41,567 nucleotides of DNA from an uncultured Neomegalonema sp. (GTDB taxonomy: Bacteria; Pseudomonadota; Alphaproteobacteria; Rhodobacterales; Rhodobacteraceae): positions 1 to 41,567 of the forward strand of contig CALKIZ010000005.1 in assembly GCA_937995735.1 (NCBI GenBank), given 5' to 3'. The notes under the pieces were generated by a model. It saw only the letters and a list, made by a program, of their open reading frames with translations. It was not told where the DNA came from and ran no database searches. The translations under genes and the position numbers were made by a program. Below, in pieces: positions 4,349 through 38,971 of the stretch; the stretch's first letter is position 1, and each line of letters opens with the position of its first letter.

Positions 4349-5080
4349 ATGAGTAAGAAACTTCTGACCGGAGGCGCAATTGTCGCCGTTTGTGCCGTTG
4401 TTGGCTACACGGCACTGAGCTTTGCCACCAAATCCGACGATTCTGTACGCAGTGCGTCCAGTTCTTCCAGTGGCGTACAAGTTGCCGATGCCAGTGGCAG
4501 TATTGTGCCGCTTTCTGAAGCCGATCCGCTGGAGCCATATGTAGGGACAACAACTGAGAGTGGCGGCTTTACCGGCGATGTCGTTGAAGGCTCGCCCGAT
4601 GCAAAAGTCACGGTCATTGAATATGCTTCGCTGACCTGCCCACACTGTGCAGCGTTTCACAAATCGATCTATAACCCGATGAAGCCCGATTACATTGATA
4701 ATGGCAAAATTCGTTTTATTTACAGAGACTTTCCACTCGATAACTTCGCTCTGGCGGCGAGCGTGATTGCGCGCTGTGGCGGTGAAAAGCGGTTTGTTGG
4801 TTTGATCGACCTGTTCCTTGACAAACAATCGGAATGGCGCGGTGCAGATAACGTGCTCGACGAATTGAAACGCCTTGCCCGCCTTGGCGGACTCGGAAGC
4901 GAGCAAATTGATAAATGCATGAGCGATCAGGCCCTTGGTCAGTCGATCGTTGATCGCGCGCGTCAAGGCCAAGAGATTTTTGATGTGAACTCAACACCGA
5001 CAGTGCTGATTAACGGAGAGAAGTTCCGTGCAACGTCATTAGGAGCGCTACGCACGAAGCTAGATTCGATGCTCGAATAG
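4349..5080 (+). CDS. DsbA-like periplasmic thiol:disulfide oxidoreductase
   Basis: 243 residues. An N-terminal hydrophobic segment (about residues 7-25) acts as signal peptide or anchor and is followed by a Ser-rich linker. The thioredoxin-fold domain has the CPHC active site (Cys97 and Cys100) in SLTCPHCAAFH and the cis-proline loop NSTPTVLING near the C-terminus, so it belongs to the DsbA/BdbD-like group (Thioredoxin_4). It should oxidise or shuffle disulfides of exported proteins. No DsbB-like partner is visible. It sits between dciA and smc, a recurrent alphaproteobacterial arrangement, and ends in a good terminator. Confidence 0.9.
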   Translation: MSKKLLTGGAIVAVCAVVGYTALSFATKSDDSVRSASSSSSGVQVADASGSIVPLSEADPLEPYVGTTTESGGFTGDVVEGSPDAKVTVIEYASLTCPHCAAFHKSIYNPMKPDYIDNGKIRFIYRDFPLDNFALAASVIARCGGEKRFVGLIDLFLDKQSEWRGADNVLDELKRLARLGGLGSEQIDKCMSDQALGQSIVDRARQGQEIFDVNSTPTVLINGEKFRATSLGALRTKLDSMLE

Positions 5081-5132
5081 TAACTTTACGCTATCGTCAA
5101 TGCTCGACGGGATCATCAGCATCGACACAAAG

Positions 5133-5167
5133 AAAAAGCCGTTTCATTAATTTGAATCGGCTTTTTT
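5133..5167 (+). terminator. Intrinsic terminator of the dciA/dsbA-like transcript
   Basis: AAAAAGCCG pairs with CGGCTTTTT, and the stem continues inward through one mismatch (TTTCA with TGAAT/A) to a short TTAA loop. The T-run follows the stem directly and A's precede it, so it may also work in reverse. Confidence 0.8.
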
Positions 5168-5254
5168 GCTTTTATCTGTGAGATATAAGTCGCGATGTTC
5201 AGATTAAATCTCCTTTATGCAGTGGGTTAGCCTTCACAGAACCACAACATCTCG

Positions 5255-5283
5255 TTGACAGACTGACACACCCCTCGCTACCG
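5255..5283 (+). promoter_or_regulatory. Candidate smc promoter
   Basis: A perfect TTGACA (5255-5260) is followed after 17 bases by CTACCG, a weak -10 that overlaps the GCTA type known in Caulobacter promoters. A start point near 5290 would give a leader of about 28 bases before the GTG of smc. Confidence 0.4.
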
Positions 5284-5317
5284 TTCCGCCAAATTAAGGG
5301 TGGCCGGAGAAGCGCCT

Positions 5318-8300
5318 GTGAAGTTTACGAATTTGAGGCTGTCAGGATTTAAGTCCTTCGTTGATCCGACTGAGCTTTTGCTACAGCCGGGGTTGACGGG
5401 AATCGTTGGCCCCAATGGATGCGGTAAATCCAATCTTCTCGAAGCAATGCGATGGGTCATGGGCGAAAGTTCCGCCAAATCCATGCGCGGCGAAGGGATG
5501 GATGACGTTATCTTTGCCGGTGCGGCAACCCGCCCGCCGCGTAATTTTGCTGAAGTCTCGTTGATGATTGATAACGGGAAGCGCTTGGCGCCGCCGCAAT
5601 TCGGCGATGTCGAAACTCTCGAAGTCGTGCGCCGCATTACCCGCGATGTTGGCTCGACTTACCGCGTCAACGGCAAGGAAACCCGCGCCCGCGATGTGCG
5701 GATGCTGTTTGCTGATGCCGCAAGCGGGGCGCAATCACCGGCCTTGGTGCGTCAAGGGCGTATCGGTGAGCTGATTTCGGCCAAACCAACAGGCCGCCGC
5801 CGCTTTCTTGAAGAGGCTGCGGGTGTCTCTGGTTTGAATGTTCGCCGCCGCGAAGCGGAATTAAAGTTAAAGGCTGCTGAAGAGAATCTGCTGCGCGTTG
5901 ATGACGTTTTATCGCGGCTTGATTCGCAAATTGGATCTCTGCGGCGTCAGGCTCGGCAAGCGGAACGGTATTCAAAATTGAGTGACGACATCGCTGAGAC
6001 AGCGGCTTTGCTAGTTTGGTTACGTTACGCGGATGCGGATGCAGAAGCACTTGCCGCACAATCCGCATTGACGGCAGCAACTGTTGCAGTGGCTTCCGCT
6101 ACCTCTGCCGCAGGCGAAGCGTCTCGCGCGCGGGAGGAAACGTCAGAAGCACTGCCAGCGCTTCGCGAGGAAGCAACGGTTGCTCAGGCAGTCTATGCCC
6201 GGTTGACCGCCAAACGCGATGGCCTCGACGAAGAAGCCGCCCGAGCCAAAGCCACACTGGAACGACTTGAAGGTGAATTTACCCGTCTTGGCAATGACCT
6301 CGAACGTGAGGGCGAGCTTGGCAGTGATGCCGTCAAAGCCTTAGAGGAATTGCAGGCCGAACGTGAAGCTCTGCAAGGACAAGGGACAGATGCAAACCTG
6401 ATTGAACAGGCGGCCTTAAAATCTCAGGCAGCCGCCGCTGTTGTCACCGATGCCGAGGCTTCGCTGGACAGGCTTTCTTCCCGTGCCGCTGCCGCAACCG
6501 CAGAACGCACAGCGGCAGAACGCGCGAAAGGTGAAGCAGAGCGAGCGCTTGCTCAGGCACAAGCGCGACTCGAGCAAGACGCCCCGAAAATCCAGCAACT
6601 GGCGAATGACATTGCTGAAGCTGAAAAGAAATTTTCTGCTGCACAATCTGCTGATGAAACCGCCCGGACTGCCGTTAATGACGCGCCAGACCGCATCACG
6701 CGAAGCGTCGAAGAACGCGAGTCAATGGAAGAGCGCGAGACGGAGGCGCGCGGCGCAGTCTCTACATTACGCGCCTCCTGCAATGCACTGATCGCTGAGA
6801 TCGAATCGTTGAACAAGGCTTTGGCCGCTGAAAGCAAAACGGATACCGGCGCAGCGATTATGACCCGAATGCGCGCTGCTCCCGGATATGAAGCGGCTCT
6901 CGCTGCTGCGTTGGGCGAGGATGCCGCTGCCCCTGAATTACAGGGTTTCTCAGAAAAAGCGCGTGGCTGGTTAGCGTTGAAGTTACTCGGGTCCAATCCC
7001 CCGGTCGGTGAACCACTCTCGGCGCATGTAGAGGCTCCTGCTGCGCTGGCGCGGCGGTTAGCGGTCACATCTGTTGTATCCCGCGCAGAAGGACCGGAAG
7101 CCCAGAAATCCCTCAAACCGGGACAACATCTCGTCAGTCCCGAAGGCGATCTTTGGCGTTGGGATGGCTTTTTCAGCGGCGCAGAAACCCGCGCCGGTGA
7201 TCCGGCTGTGGTCCGCTTGGCACGCTTAAACCGCCTCGATTCACTGAAAAAAGAGTTGAGCGCTGAGGAAACAGCCCTCGAAGAGGCCACGCGCACTCTT
7301 GATCGTCTTGAGCGCGGTCTGGCTGATGCGCGTCTTACGGAGTCAAATGCACGGGCTGAGCATCAAAAGGTGCAGGATGCCGCTGCGAATGCGGCTCGTG
7401 CTTTTGCCGATGCCGATGCGACGATGACACGATTAAAAACCAACCACACGCAGCTCTCAGAAAGCGTTGCAAGCCAGACCGAGGCTGAAGAACGTAACCG
7501 CGAAGCCTTTGCCCAAGCCAGCTCTGCTTTGGCTGAAATCGGCGATCCAACCGCTATGCGCGAAGAAGCAGAAAGCGCGAGAACGGCCCTTGTCGCGCTT
7601 CGTCAGGCGCATTCGACGGCAAAGTCTGAACATGACGAACTTGTTGCGGTTGAACGCGCCCGTTCCAGCCGCCTTGAGACAATCGACCGCGATGTAGCAA
7701 GTTGGCAGGACCGCGCGGCAAAGGCAAAAACGCGCACCAGTGACCTTGAGACACGGCGCGAAACTGTTCGTTTAGAACGTGATAACGCGCAATCTGCGCC
7801 TGATCGGGTCGCCGCTTTACGCGATGAACTGGTTTTCGACCTCGAAGCAGCAGAAGAACGTGTAACGGCGGCGAATGATGCTCTTTCAACCGCTGAAACA
7901 ATCGCTCGTCAGGCCACCAAAACCGACTCAGATGCCGCGTCAGCTCTTTCGACCGCCCGTGAAGCCCGTGCCCGTGCAGAAGCGGTCGCTGAAGCAGCTG
8001 CGACACGGAAGTCCGAAGCCGCGACGACACTGCGCGAAGAAGTCAAAGCCGAACCAGCGGAGGTTGCCGCACGCTTCGCCGATGGCGATACCCCTGATGT
8101 TGCGCTCGCTGATGTAGAGGCACGGCTTACCAAGCTCAAAATGGACCGTGAGCGGCTCGGGGCCGTTAACCTGCGTGCCAGCATCGAAATTCAGGAAGCT
8201 GATACAGAGCGCGAAGCCCTCGGCACTGAGAGAGACGACCTTGAAGAAGCGATCAGCAAGCTCCGCAAAGGTCTAGCCGAACTGAACAAAGAAGGCCGAA

Positions 8301-33508: not shown

Positions 33509-33585
<77 letters not shown>

Positions 33586-33593
33586 AAGAATTC

Positions 33594-33688: not shown

Positions 33689-34960
33689 TTAGATAGTCCT
33701 TATCGCTGCATCAATCTTTGGAAGTTGGTCCACGAGAAAGTCTTCGAGGGTGTCGGCGGCGGTCTTGTAAAGATTATCAACGTCTCCAATATCGTGGGTC
33801 GTAGCACGATTATTGAGCAACCAAACTGAACCGAGAGTGGAGAACTCAGAGGACATTTTTTCTACGGATTTTTGCCATCCTGTATCTGCTGCGCCATCTA
33901 TTAACGCTTGAAGTAGTTTTCGCCGAGCTTCGGCATCGCCCGGACCGATGATGAACATTGCTCGAATGCCATCAGCTGATTTTACAAACTCAAGCCACAT
34001 TAAGCGCTTTGTCGCCTCCAAGCGTTTATCCGTGCCTGTGAGCATACCGGGGCAACGATCCCAGTTTGGAAAGCTGAAGATCAGGCGTGAGTTAGTTTCG
34101 TGGTCCCATTCACCGCTTCCGTATAGATCAAAGCCCATCTGGCTTAATCGAGAATATAGTTTGTCTGATTTCAAGTCGTACAGCTTATCAAAGACCTCGC
34201 TAACGACATTAGGGCGGTTGTCCGCAAGAAAGCCCAACGCATCAGGATACCGCGCCCATAACGCCTCAGCGAGGCCTTCGAGTTCTTTATCTGTCATGAA
34301 CTTTTGCTCCATTATTCGCACGTAGTCAGCAAGCATGGCACGCGCTATCTCATTGCCTTGGTTGTTGGTAGCGATTTGCCGCAATGATTGGACAAACCCA
34401 GCAGTCATATTGAAATCGCGCCAACCTTGATGGGATGCCTCGGTCCCTTCGGGGGTCATGAAGACATAAAGCTTATCGTAATCACGGTATTCTGGTCTGC
34501 TTTCAATGAAGGTCTTGTACTTCTTGAGCTGATGCGCACTTTCTTGTGCGTGAACCTTCAGCTCGACCACGATAATCGTGTTCAATTTGGGATCGTTCAA
34601 CTCAATCACAATGTCTATGTCGTGCCACTCACGCCTGATGAGTGTCTGCCCAACTCCATTGATGACGACTTGCGCCAGTTTTGATGCATCCGTGTCTCTG
34701 GTGAAGAGTTGCTTCAGGAAGGTTACAAGTACATGCTCGCCAAATCCATGCGCTGCGGTTGCATTCAGCAGGTAAGCGAGAAAGTTTCCATGACGCACTT
34801 CATAATCAGCAACTCCTAACGCCTCAAAAGGAGAAAAAACGAAAAGCTTGCGGCACAAAGTCTCAAAATCAGCATCATCCCCAACCATTCGAAGAATGCT
34901 ACGATACCAAACTTCAGTCTCACCACCCTGCAAACTGCTGTTGACTTCGTTGGACACCAT
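33689..34960 (-). CDS. PD-(D/E)XK nuclease-superfamily protein (PDDEXK_4-like)
   Basis: 423 residues. Residues about 50-80 (VRHGNFLAYLLNATAAHGFGEHVL) match the N-terminal helix that opens PDDEXK_4 proteins. The nuclease core is at 112-150: Asp114/Asp116 in WHDIDIVIEL, then Glu133 and Lys135 in IVVELKVHAQE and Gln144, a complete D...ExK...Q site. The C-terminal 250 residues are helical with a domain around SNSRLIFSFPNWDR-like sequence of unknown role. Members of this family cluster with phage-defence genes; direct biochemical roles are mostly unknown. Divergent from the methyltransferase, sharing a 282-base control region. Confidence 0.8.
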   Translation of the reverse strand: MVSNEVNSSLQGGETEVWYRSILRMVGDDADFETLCRKLFVFSPFEALGVADYEVRHGNFLAYLLNATAAHGFGEHVLVTFLKQLFTRDTDASKLAQVVINGVGQTLIRREWHDIDIVIELNDPKLNTIIVVELKVHAQESAHQLKKYKTFIESRPEYRDYDKLYVFMTPEGTEASHQGWRDFNMTAGFVQSLRQIATNNQGNEIARAMLADYVRIMEQKFMTDKELEGLAEALWARYPDALGFLADNRPNVVSEVFDKLYDLKSDKLYSRLSQMGFDLYGSGEWDHETNSRLIFSFPNWDRCPGMLTGTDKRLEATKRLMWLEFVKSADGIRAMFIIGPGDAEARRKLLQALIDGAADTGWQKSVEKMSSEFSTLGSVWLLNNRATTHDIGDVDNLYKTAADTLEDFLVDQLPKIDAAIRTI

Positions 34961-35242: not shown

Positions 35243-36346
35243 TTGAGCCAACTGGAAATTTCGTTACATCCTGCAGCCAACATTAACGGAGCCAGTAGCA
35301 TGGGCAAAGTCGGCAAATGTATGGGAGAGGTTGTTGACCTGTTCTGTGGTGTTGGCGGTGTAAGTCATGGTTTTAAACGTGCCGGATTTCGCATAGTCGC
35401 GGGTTACGATCTCGACGAAGGCTGTAGATATGCATTCGAAAATAATAACGATAGTCGGTTTGTTGCGAAAGACTTACGAGATGTCAGCGCAAAAGAAATT
35501 AAAGCAAGGTTCTCTTGGGAAATCCCATCCGTTCTAGTCGGATGTGCACCTTGTCAACCGTTCTCAAGTTACAAAAAAGGACAGGTTGATGACAGATGGA
35601 GCCTGCTCAAGACCTTTGCGGAGATCGCAATAAAGGTGGAACCTGATTACGTCTCAATGGAAAATGTTGCAGGTTTGATGGAATATCAAAACGGACAGCT
35701 TTTTTCAGAGTTTATCGAGATACTCGAAAGAAAATATCATTGTTTTCATACGGTTGTGGATTGTACAGATTTCGGTGTGCCACAGAGGAGAAAGAGGCTA
35801 GTTGTGATTGCTGCCAAAACCCGCAAACCCACCTTGCTTCAACCTAAGTTAACCGTACCGGTGTCGGTTAAGGACGCCATTCAGCACCTTGAACCTCTTA
35901 AAGCTGGCGAATTATCTGATTGCGATCCGCTACACCGATGCAGTCGTTTGTCGCCGCTTAATCTAAAGCGAATTCGTGCATCCAAACCCGGTGGAACGTG
36001 GCGAGATTGGCCGCGTGAATTAGTTTCAAACTGTCACAAAGCAAAGACCGGTAAAGGGTACGGTGGCGTTTATGGAAGAATGGAATGGAATAGAGCCGCC
36101 CCAACGATAACTACGCAATGCTATGGTTATGGAAATGGTCGGTTTGGGCATCCGACCCAAGATCGTGGAATGTCACTTCGCGAAGCCGCAATTTTACAAA
36201 CGTTTCCAGAGAATTATCAGTTTTTTGAAGAAGGAAAGTTTCCAGGTTTCAAGGCAGTCGGAAGATGGATCGGGAATGCTGTCCCAGTCATGCTTGCTGA
36301 AAACATTGCCAGATCAATTTCCACGGAGATCAAGGCTAATGCCTAA
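35243..36346 (+). CDS. DNA (cytosine-5-)-methyltransferase
   Basis: 367 residues. Motif I VVDLFCGVGGVSHGFKRAGF binds AdoMet; motif IV VGCAPCQPFSSY has the catalytic Cys104; motif VI MENVAG (Glu140); motif VIII QRRKR (181-185); motif IX region SLREAAILQTFPENY; motif X WIGNAVPVML. The target-recognition region between VIII and IX is about 110 residues (with SRLSPLNLKRI and PGGTWRDWP), so one short site is expected; the site itself cannot be read. TTG 35243 is chosen because AAGGAG stands 5 bases upstream; ATG 35300 would give a shorter form. It overlaps the next gene by 8 bases. Confidence 0.95.
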   Translation: MSQLEISLHPAANINGASSMGKVGKCMGEVVDLFCGVGGVSHGFKRAGFRIVAGYDLDEGCRYAFENNNDSRFVAKDLRDVSAKEIKARFSWEIPSVLVGCAPCQPFSSYKKGQVDDRWSLLKTFAEIAIKVEPDYVSMENVAGLMEYQNGQLFSEFIEILERKYHCFHTVVDCTDFGVPQRRKRLVVIAAKTRKPTLLQPKLTVPVSVKDAIQHLEPLKAGELSDCDPLHRCSRLSPLNLKRIRASKPGGTWRDWPRELVSNCHKAKTGKGYGGVYGRMEWNRAAPTITTQCYGYGNGRFGHPTQDRGMSLREAAILQTFPENYQFFEEGKFPGFKAVGRWIGNAVPVMLAENIARSISTEIKANA

Positions 36347-38285
36347 GCCAAATCATTTCGAAATGCGCGTCGATCTAAATGTCCTCAATCATCTAGGCAT
36401 TAAGCTCTATAGCAGTATCCCGGCGGTTATCTCCGAAGCAGTCGCAAATGCTTGGGACGCAGATGCGACGCAGGTCGAAATAGTTATTGAAGAGGACACG
36501 ATCACGATACAGGACGACGGTCATGGCATGACTGTAGAAGATATAAATTCTAAGTTCCTTACAGTTGGTTATCAAAGAAGAAGATCTGGCTGTGCCCTGA
36601 CGCCGAAAGGGCGCAAGGTATTCGGTCGAAAAGGTATTGGGAAATTATCACTGTTTTCGATTGCCGACACTATCGAAGTACACAGCAAGAAAGGACAAAG
36701 GGTCGCTGCGTTGACCCTTTGTCTACCGGGAATTCAGGATACAATTGATGCGGGCGGCGAGACCTACGAACCGATACCGATAGAAAAACCGTCTTTTGAA
36801 GGACACTCTGGAACAAAGATTGTAATATCAGATATTCGAAAACGCACGTCTCATGCACCCGGTCCACTGAGGCGACGCATCGCTCGCCGCTTCTCTGAAA
36901 TTGGAAAGAAGAAGGCAGATTTTTCAGTATCGGTAAACGGTGTGAAAATTTCGTCGGAGGACCGACAATACTTCAAGAAAGTCGAATTTCTCTGGGCCTA
37001 CGGGGATGTCGGTGCGGAAATCAAGAAGATCACAAATGCGAAGCAATCGTTTGACCGGACAGCCAGTTTTTCTGGCTGGATTGGAACGGTCAAGTCAGCT
37101 GGCGATCTAGTTAGCGAAGATGAAGATAACCTGAATGACATACAGATAATGGTAAGGGGCCGCGTTGCTCAAGAAAAGACACTTCAGTTTTTTGGGGAAG
37201 ATGGCATTTATGCGTCCTATATCGTGGGTGAAATTCATGCTGATTGGCTTGATGATGATGACGCAGAGGACATTGCGACGACAAGCCGCCAATCACTCAT
37301 TGAAGATGATGAGAGAGTACAGGCGCTCCGTGACGAGATCAAAACTGAATTGAAGCACATCCAAAATAAGTGGACGCAGCTTAGAAACAAAGAAGGAAAA
37401 AAAGAAGCGTTAAAGGTGCCTGAGGTCGAAAGTTGGTTCAACACACTGGGGCCTGATCAGAAAAACAAAGCCTCCCAACTCTTCGGGAAAATCAACAAAC
37501 TCAAACTCGAGCCAGTGGACAAAATGCCATTATTCAAGTTTGGGGTTTTGGCATTCGAAAAGCTTAAAGTCCGTGATACGCTTAGCAAACTTGACGAGAT
37601 AGAAGAACAAGACTTCCAAGGGTTCCTACAAGCATTCGAAAGTCACGATGACTTAGAAGCGCAGCTTTACTACGAAATTTCGCGCGGCAGGCTTGATATC
37701 ATCAACAGCTTTGAAGGTCTGACCGAAGAAAACAAACTTGAGAAAATTCTTCAAAAGTTTCTTTTCGAGCATCTCTGGCTCCTTGATCCCTCATGGGACC
37801 GCGGTACAAGAGAGCCGGTTATGGAGAAGGAAGTCAAGAAGGCTGTACTCAACGATGAAGAGTTTAATGGCGACTACATGAAAGAAGTTGGTCGTGTTGA
37901 CATTCAATACAGAAAATCGGGTGGAGAGCACTTAATAATTGAACTGAAACGAGCTGATCGCGTGACATCGACTAGCGAGCTTTTCACTCAAGTTAATAAG
38001 TACCAAACTAAAATGGATCAGTTGCTCGCACACACGGATCGGTCTCACGAAGCATACGAAATAGTTTGCTTGGTCGGAAAAGAACTTAGCGACTGGAAAA
38101 TTCCACAAGGTCGTGAAAAATCTCGAAGAGTACTCAAAGAAGTCAATGCACGAGTTATGACCTATCAACAGTTGATTGGTAATGCCCGCAGAGCTTACGG
38201 AGCTTACTTGAAAGCTGAACAAAAGGCAGGAAAAATCTTCGACGTAATTGAAGCGATTGATCGCAGCATTGACAAGGGGGATTAG
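36339..38285 (+). CDS. GHKL (MutL/MORC-like) ATPase fused to a PD-(D/E)XK nuclease
   Basis: About 648 residues. The N-terminal GHKL ATPase has motif N1 SEAVANAWDAD (Glu33 base, Asn37 for Mg2+), motif G1 QDDGHGM (59-64) and motif G2 FGRKGIGKLSLF (95-106). A middle S5-like domain and a charged helical linker (about 330-450) follow. The C-terminal domain has Asp521 (VGRVDIQYR), Glu535 and Lys537 (IIELKRAD) and a following Gln-containing helix (FTQVNKYQTKMDQ), a PD-(D/E)XK site. ATG 36339 lies inside the methyltransferase end, so translation is coupled. Iyer, Abhiman and Aravind described such MutL-like ATPases as parts of restriction-modification systems and relatives of eukaryotic MORC. Confidence 0.88.
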   Translation: MPKPNHFEMRVDLNVLNHLGIKLYSSIPAVISEAVANAWDADATQVEIVIEEDTITIQDDGHGMTVEDINSKFLTVGYQRRRSGCALTPKGRKVFGRKGIGKLSLFSIADTIEVHSKKGQRVAALTLCLPGIQDTIDAGGETYEPIPIEKPSFEGHSGTKIVISDIRKRTSHAPGPLRRRIARRFSEIGKKKADFSVSVNGVKISSEDRQYFKKVEFLWAYGDVGAEIKKITNAKQSFDRTASFSGWIGTVKSAGDLVSEDEDNLNDIQIMVRGRVAQEKTLQFFGEDGIYASYIVGEIHADWLDDDDAEDIATTSRQSLIEDDERVQALRDEIKTELKHIQNKWTQLRNKEGKKEALKVPEVESWFNTLGPDQKNKASQLFGKINKLKLEPVDKMPLFKFGVLAFEKLKVRDTLSKLDEIEEQDFQGFLQAFESHDDLEAQLYYEISRGRLDIINSFEGLTEENKLEKILQKFLFEHLWLLDPSWDRGTREPVMEKEVKKAVLNDEEFNGDYMKEVGRVDIQYRKSGGEHLIIELKRADRVTSTSELFTQVNKYQTKMDQLLAHTDRSHEAYEIVCLVGKELSDWKIPQGREKSRRVLKEVNARVMTYQQLIGNARRAYGAYLKAEQKAGKIFDVIEAIDRSIDKGD

Positions 38286-38386: not shown

Positions 38387-38971
38387 TCATGCTACCTTAT
38401 AGTCTGAATAAATCTCTGTCTGCTTTATAATGCGGTAAACGGTTGAACGGCCCAAAGAAAGTTCTTTGGCAATATCGGATGCTTTGAAGCCCTTTGCCTT
38501 GAGCATGTGGACCTCTTTGACTTTGGTGTCCGATACCGGAACGCGGCCCTTATATCGGCCATCAGCTTTAGCTTTTGCAATCCCCTCGCGTTGGCGCTCT
38601 AACATTAAGGCTCGTTCATATTCAGCCATAGCGCCGAACATTGTCAGCATCAGTTTTCCAGTTGGCGATTTGGTATCCATCGCCGCGCCACCAAAATCGA
38701 GAATGCGAAGAGCCACACCTTTTTGATCCAACTCTTCGATCATTTTCAATAAGTGTTGCGTCGAGCGCGCAAGGCGGTCGAGCTTCGTGACGATCAATGT
38801 ATCACCATCACGAACAAACTTTAACGCGCTATCGAGTTCTGCGCGCTGAGCCACCGATGAAACCTGCTCTTGAAATAACTGTTCACACCCTGCCGCTTCC
38901 AACTCACGTATCTGAGCTTCAAACCCTGCGACCTGTTCTGCGGTAGAAGTACGTGCATATCCAACAAGCAT
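38387..38971 (-). CDS. Serine recombinase, resolvase/invertase family
   Basis: 194 residues. The catalytic domain starts VGYARTSTAEQ with Ser9 as nucleophile; later come TKLDRLARSTQHLL (catalytic Arg), GKLMLTMFGAMAEYERALMLERQREG (E helix). The C-terminal helix-turn-helix is KGFKASDIAKELSLGRSTVYRII. Size and layout match the small Tn3-type resolvases and DNA invertases. Two dyads resembling resolvase sites lie just upstream (39011-39093), so it probably acts on them. No transposase of Tn3 type is visible, so it may resolve plasmid or island dimers or invert DNA. Confidence 0.93.
   Translation of the reverse strand: MLVGYARTSTAEQVAGFEAQIRELEAAGCEQLFQEQVSSVAQRAELDSALKFVRDGDTLIVTKLDRLARSTQHLLKMIEELDQKGVALRILDFGGAAMDTKSPTGKLMLTMFGAMAEYERALMLERQREGIAKAKADGRYKGRVPVSDTKVKEVHMLKAKGFKASDIAKELSLGRSTVYRIIKQTEIYSDYKVA

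Follow-up and report, generated by a model that had tools for sequence, protein, structure and literature searches.

A predicted Type II restriction-modification pair of the BbrUII/HgiDII family, joining a GHKL ATPase to a putative nuclease, on a genomic island of an uncultured Neomegalonema species

We describe two overlapping genes, encoding a DNA cytosine-5 methyltransferase (M) and a putative restriction enzyme (R), in a stretch of 41,567 nucleotides from an uncultured Neomegalonema sp. of the Rhodobacteraceae (contig CALKIZ010000005.1, positions 1 to 41,567; hereafter the window). Both genes lie on the forward strand, each with an intact reading frame of full length. M occupies 35243..36346 and comprises 367 codons from a TTG at 35243, while R occupies 36339..38285 and encodes 648 residues, in which a GHKL ATPase domain is followed by an S5-like domain, a helical linker and a predicted PD-(D/E)XK nuclease domain; the stop of M and the start of R fall within 8 shared bases (36339..36346, + strand). 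The start of M was read by eye and is uncertain: the TTG at 35243 is preceded by AAGGAG, and an ATG at 35300 is an alternative. The longest open frame over R begins at 36123 and would encode 720 residues, a start that is too early because homology to the family begins at residue 7 of the 648-residue form. Re-derivation confirmed the coordinates, the 8-base overlap and the length of R given in a sequence-only reading of this DNA, which had further held that the two proteins are made together; the overlap suggests co-translation, but it is no demonstration of it.

By its sequence, M is a cytosine-5 DNA methyltransferase. It matches Pfam DNA_methylase (8.6e-58), PADLOC MTase_II (8.3e-85) and, above the cut-off, TIGR00675 (dcm), and it carries the 5-methylcytosine (m5C) motifs PCQ, with Cys104, and ENV, at residues 140-142, which are invariant in 11 aligned rows. 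R matches the NCBIfam model NF050001, "BbrUII/HgiDII family restriction enzyme", with 765.9 bits against a curated cut-off of 550, in an alignment that spans the whole model (positions 1-659 of 659) and residues 7-640 of the protein, and it matches PADLOC REase_II at 2.4e-97. All 17 members of a first alignment match NF050001 at 1e-5 or better, a threshold on E-value and not the 550-bit cut-off. These matches place the pair in the already named BbrUII/HgiDII family of Type II restriction-modification systems. With BbrUII of Bifidobacterium breve UCC2003 and HgiDII of Herpetosiphon it shares the whole-length R match above the cut-off and the m5C partner; it differs from them in coming from another host group, and its site and its cutting are predicted.

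The architecture of R was delineated with an AlphaFold2 model built from 40 sequences (mean predicted local distance difference test score, pLDDT, 81.2; predicted template modelling score 0.64), from which the domain boundaries were judged. The GHKL ATPase domain takes up residues ~1-145 (36339..36773, + strand), where Pfam HATPase_c_3 matches residues 28-149 at 8.9e-19. The alpha/beta region of the model that follows, residues ~146-324 (36774..37310, +), is named an S5-like, or transducer, domain by analogy with the paraMORC proteins and with Hsp90 and MORC, its assignment coming from the model and not from a domain match; its R317 is shared by every row without a gap at that position (98) in a 100-row alignment. 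A linker of predicted helices (325-357, 361-367, 372-387, 392-420 and 426-463) covers residues ~325-464 (37311..37730, +) and leads to the putative PD-(D/E)XK nuclease domain at residues ~465-648 (37731..38282, +), which contains E468, D521, E535, K537, Q551 and Y555. Structure prediction had been proposed by the sequence-only reading as a check on this domain, and the modelled order of C-terminal helices and strands is in accord with a restriction-fold nuclease; residues 507-519, just before D521, fall below pLDDT 50. In a Foldseek search with the whole model, the ATPases of TRAP1/Hsp90 and MORC2/MORC3 rank first among the best 50 matches listed. These matches are probably carried by the N-terminal half of R, and since the named matches listed are ATPase-type proteins, whole-model searches are uninformative on the nuclease.

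Both putative active sites are intact and conserved. Across 17 rows (the window protein and 16 relatives out of 20 rows, leaving aside the truncated frame of L008 and the two proteins with a different C-terminal region, L011 and L023), the invariant residues comprise E33, N37, D59, G61, G63, G96, K98, G99 and G101 in the ATPase part and E468, D521 and K537 in the nuclease part, with position 535 being Glu in 15 rows and Asp in two. In an alignment of 40 rows, made up of the window, two genome contigs and 37 of 80 viral-contig loci and selected for full length and presence of the motif, E468, D521, E535, K537, Q551 and Y555 are invariant, as are the GHKL motifs. The same six nuclease residues are invariant in 31 nuclease-domain rows, the window included, which were likewise selected on length and motif and are numbered from residue 440. 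The GHKL motif ranges (33-37, 59-64 and 95-106) and the residues Asp521, Glu535 and Lys537 named in the sequence-only reading are thus in place and conserved across relatives, and on these alignments the conservation of the two sets of residues is not due to chance.

A scan of viral contigs with the single R protein as query found no relative; those on viral contigs were gathered by ATPase patterns, and the best 80 of 132 were used. Before the 100-row alignment was made, L001 and L012 (the window itself), L007 (the same place as L004) and L002 (a weak hit) were dropped, and loci were counted with near-identical contigs unmerged. Of 99 loci, 95 carry an M gene within the fetched stretch, in tandem upstream of R in 61, convergent with it in 31, in tandem downstream of it in two and divergent in one; it is more than 500 bases from R in three of the 95 (L072, L076 and L079). 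Measured from longest frames, 40 of these 95 loci have same-strand M and R genes that overlap, the overlap being exactly 8 bases in eight of them (L009, L022, L068, L081-L083, L101 and L102). The fetched stretches of the other four loci (L018, L040, L078 and L084) hold no M; in one of them, a Rubrobacter plasmid (L018), the family member at 5007-7010 sits between a gene for a helicase with PDDEXK_1 and an Mrr-like gene. At the position of K537, 82 of the 100 rows have Lys. The remaining 18 comprise eight with Met, in which EFM stands instead of ELK (L085, L086, L088, L090, L097, L098, L101 and L102), seven with another C-terminal region (L011, L023, L075, L092, L095, L096 and L099) and three with split or partial R frames (L073, L076 and L093). 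The EFM relatives are paired with more distant methyltransferases, scoring below 350 bits.

The sequence-only reading had called the pair a MORC-like restriction system. That a methyltransferase is paired with a GHKL-fused nuclease as a restriction-modification system is upheld by PADLOC, NF050001, residue conservation and the model; the MORC affiliation is not. The defining feature of MORC proteins is a motif within their S5 domain (Iyer, Abhiman and Aravind, 2008, PMC2292703), and this motif, GhXhhpXXRhl, is absent from R, also with its last position relaxed, and is matched by one of the 100 rows, so that membership of MORC was rejected. R instead fits paraMORC3, a group described in the same account as combining GHKL, S5 and a C-terminal restriction-fold nuclease with E-D-ExK, with members that occur with methyltransferases and a subset that stands alone (PMC2292703): it has the GHKL ATP motifs, an S5-like part in the model and, as the putative E-D-ExK, E468, D521, E535 and K537. 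Neither HgiDII nor BbrUII is named in the available part of that account (PMC2292703).

Membership of MutL was also considered and rejected, as MutL models match only residues 25-73 of R and lie far under the cut-off. The MutL endonuclease motif is DQHA(X)2E(X)4E, and no DQHA was seen when the R sequence was read by eye. Hsp90/TRAP1 and MORC2/MORC3, whose ATPases are the best structural matches of the R model, are not known to carry a nuclease of this kind. A closer counterpart is the paraMORC3 and Dcm pair of the P2-like phage PhiR44_1 (PV340563.1), whose R is 36% identical over the whole length and whose M is 48% identical; it is carried by a phage or prophage, and its genes converge, whereas those of the window overlap. 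The PhiR44_1 pair is present in 30 of 5,426 Escherichia coli genomes, and among 10 RefSeq records listed for its R in E. coli, four bear the name BbrUII/HgiDII and six are called 'ATP-binding protein'.

In m5C enzymes, target recognition is located between the catalytic motifs and motif IX, and in this region M carries the block pGGtW.DWp..L...CH....G..y..VYgRM.wd.p.PT.TT...g.G.GRFGHP, which is largely common to 66 aligned methyltransferases (the window enzyme and 65 related ones, these being the distinct sequences among 77 that score at least 350 bits). M.HgiDII is described as a characterised m5C enzyme for GTCGAC and M.BbrUII as a characterised m5C enzyme (PMC5867850), and GTCGAC is given as the known recognition sequence of M.BbrUII (PMC5005818). 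Because the recognition block is largely common to the related methyltransferases, and given these reports on the namesake enzymes, GTCGAC is the likely site of the window pair. The second of these reports also places a methyltransferase of the GTCGAC type beside a much shorter predicted restriction endonuclease (PMC5005818); a methyltransferase of this kind can therefore occur without a GHKL partner.

The host genome holds 516 GTCGAC sites in 3.69 Mb, and with hundreds of them to protect, R could be active only alongside an active M. In 344 kb of this genome (L104-L121) there are 50 sites, against 81 expected from a first-order and 109 from a maximal-order model, and in avoidance GTCGAC ranks 44th or 24th, respectively, among 64 palindromes. 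Since the site is not specially avoided, the genome lends GTCGAC no independent support, nor does it contradict it. The window contains one GTCGAC against 9.66 expected from its own composition and ~6 from the genome average; this scarcity is offset by the 516 genomic sites and the ordinary palindrome rank, and avoidance was dropped as a proof of the site. Other palindromes, unrelated to GTCGAC, are strongly depleted in the same 344 kb by the first-order model: ACGCGT (0 against 113 expected), GCATGC (1 against 199), CCGCGG (2 against 172) and GAGCTC (1 against 82). Genes for very short patch repair endonucleases occur in the fetched stretch of four of 11 annotated loci (L006, L015, L016 and L023) and would fit the repair of deaminated m5C.

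We consider it probable that the pair acts as a Type II system of the BbrUII/HgiDII family in which M protects a site, probably GTCGAC, and R is a dimeric ATPase clamp that licenses cuts where this site is unmethylated. In such a system, M would place m5C on its site and leave the chromosome protected; R, predicted to be a dimer, would, like Hsp90, MutL and MORC, close on binding ATP, its GHKL/S5 part encircling DNA; this closure would bring together two C-terminal PD-(D/E)XK domains, so that DNA with an unmethylated site is cut. The GHKL part could instead be structural or regulatory within a restriction system of the same family that cuts without ATP hydrolysis, as an ordinary Type II enzyme would. 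In favour of this, restriction enzymes give the family model its name, the M partners are handled as Type II enzymes, and R.HgiDII was reportedly detected in ordinary restriction assays, as an isoschizomer of SalI. We nevertheless regard this as a possible but somewhat unlikely account, since the GHKL motifs do not vary over the 17 and 40 aligned rows, which speaks for a role of ATP binding, and a mutation in the ATPase of a protein with the same layout abolished defence. That protein is VcSduA of Vibrio cholerae, which combines GHKL with a Shedu nuclease and lost its anti-phage activity when mutated to either E27A or K557A (PMC12137116); we infer the clamp and the ATP gating of R from its modelled fold and by analogy with VcSduA, which has the same domain order and needs both active sites for defence. 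Proteins with GHKL and a Shedu nuclease had earlier been called paraMORC3, and VcSduA is described as an independent system, with no methyltransferase mentioned in the available part of the account (PMC12137116).

The likeness to VcSduA also bears on a reading in which R attacks phage DNA directly, in the manner of Shedu, while M marks self loosely and there is no fixed cut at GTCGAC. The best matches of the nuclease part in the PDB are two Shedu proteins (E 0.079 and 0.088, both sub-threshold, followed by NucS at 0.47), SduA_C (PF14082) is found weakly in 14 of the 31 nuclease rows at 0.01, and four of the 99 loci have no M in the fetched stretch. The Shedu matches nonetheless stay below the cut-off: SduA_C reaches 15.8 bits on the whole window R and 19.8 bits on its nuclease part alone, against a gathering cut-off of 27, and membership of Shedu is not claimed. 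NucS_C and PDDEXK_4 are also found in three rows each, M is present in 95 of the 99 loci and its recognition block is largely common, and we hold a direct attack of this kind to be improbable. That the system is decayed or silent, its two genes being remnants on an island, we judge highly improbable: short or split R frames do occur among relatives (the R frame of L008 is cut short close to the end of a contig, and those of L071, L072, L073 and L076 are in pieces), but the window frames are open and of full length and their catalytic residues are present. Several points weigh against the restriction-modification reading that we favour. The activity of the pair is predicted from the family and the residues; the nuclease matches Pfam and PDB families below threshold, its putative fold coming from the sequence and the whole-protein model; and the assignment of GTCGAC comes from the family model and the papers on the namesakes and not from an alignment with the namesake methyltransferase sequences. 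The M of L103, kept in the recognition comparison, departs most from the common block, 18 of the 95 M genes score below 350 bits and were excluded from that comparison, and no special avoidance of GTCGAC was found among the 64 palindromes in the 344 kb of host sequence.

Few such systems have been tested according to the sequence-only reading, which needs qualifying in that the namesake methyltransferases are reported as GTCGAC enzymes and mutants of VcSduA have been assayed. Among the matches listed in our literature search, which covered mainly openly available papers, none was a biochemical study of how BbrUII/HgiDII enzymes use ATP. As a system the pair is ordinary; its value would be as a clean test case for an intact Hsp90/MutL/MORC-type ATPase on a Type II restriction enzyme. 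Knowing what this ATPase does would also inform work on Shedu-type defence proteins with this architecture and on the proposal that eukaryotic MORC proteins descend from restriction systems.

In the M tree, the group of four that contains the window enzyme (support 93) joins the methyltransferases of L092, L011 and L023 at 99 in the Shimodaira-Hasegawa-like approximate likelihood ratio test. These three also share the recognition block of the window enzyme, and their partners keep the GHKL half but end in another C-terminus, without the PD-(D/E)XK residues; the methyltransferases of L095 and L075 sit elsewhere. In the tree of R N-termini, L092, L011, L023 and L095 group in a separate clade, and none of them is found in the smallest supported sets around the window. 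Both trees are quick ones, made without bootstraps. As the M tree joins lineages that the R N-terminal tree separates, the discordance points to whole-gene re-pairing of M with another GHKL protein, and a swap of the effector domain is the less likely event.

An RxxxxH stretch, which on a reading by eye resembles the motif of HEPN RNases, was seen in the C-termini of the GHKL proteins of L011, L023, L075, L092, L095 and L096, whose genes lie next to methyltransferases of the same class. Pfam finds only the ATPase in L023, L075, L092 and L095, and an AlphaFold2 model of L092 from three sequences reached a mean pLDDT of 37.1 and was not used, so that HEPN has no structural support from it. HEPN domains of the Ymh type are described as fused to paraMORC proteins in restriction neighbourhoods (PMC3710099). 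It is conceivable, if quite unlikely in our estimate, that the GHKL/S5 module and not the nuclease reads GTCGAC methylation and switches on an exchangeable effector, a DNA nuclease in the lineage of the window and, in the sister lineage, a HEPN-like RNase that would shut down the cell; DNA cutting and abortive infection would then both depend on a single methylation code.

The family is sporadic in the host family, where six of 295 sampled genomes match at 1e-30, and in the host phylum three of 398 genomes match NF050001 at 1e-50, two of them above the cut-off; both counts include the host's own genome. None of 14 control genomes matches NF050001 at 1e-50. Close relatives (72-73%) occur in a Neorhizobium, in a Rhodobacteraceae bin and on a Rhizobium plasmid, and at 1e-5 there are matches in 24 of 72,556 plasmid records and one of 50,697 phage records. 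This scatter over genomes, plasmids and phage suggests a mobile defence module.

The pair lies on a genomic island. A genome of the same genus (G687) matches the window at 87-88% through gcvT and the methionine transfer RNA (tRNA-Met) gene, and the similarity breaks off at 33586, a single base beyond the end of the tRNA-Met gene at 33585 (edge region 33509-33586); the other 11 genomes of the genus that were compared have no match to the gene used for this comparison of the island edge. The guanine-plus-cytosine content is 0.463 from the edge to the end of the contig, against 0.539 before it. Because similarity within the genus ends there and the guanine-plus-cytosine content falls, we place the start of the island at the 3' end of the tRNA-Met gene; its other end lies outside the window. 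Between this edge and the pair, and divergent from it, a gene on the reverse strand (33689-34960) encodes a 423-residue PDDEXK_4 protein that PADLOC marks as a candidate PDC-S26 defence system (1.1e-77). A search of the frames of L001-L103 at 1e-5 gave no homologue of this candidate, and a distant second match to it lies on another contig of the same genome (C41; 25% identity over residues 25-251). The island also carries an endolysin-like gene and, just after the pair, a serine resolvase/invertase gene on the reverse strand (38387-38971), a relative of which (38%) adjoins the GHKL pair of L023.

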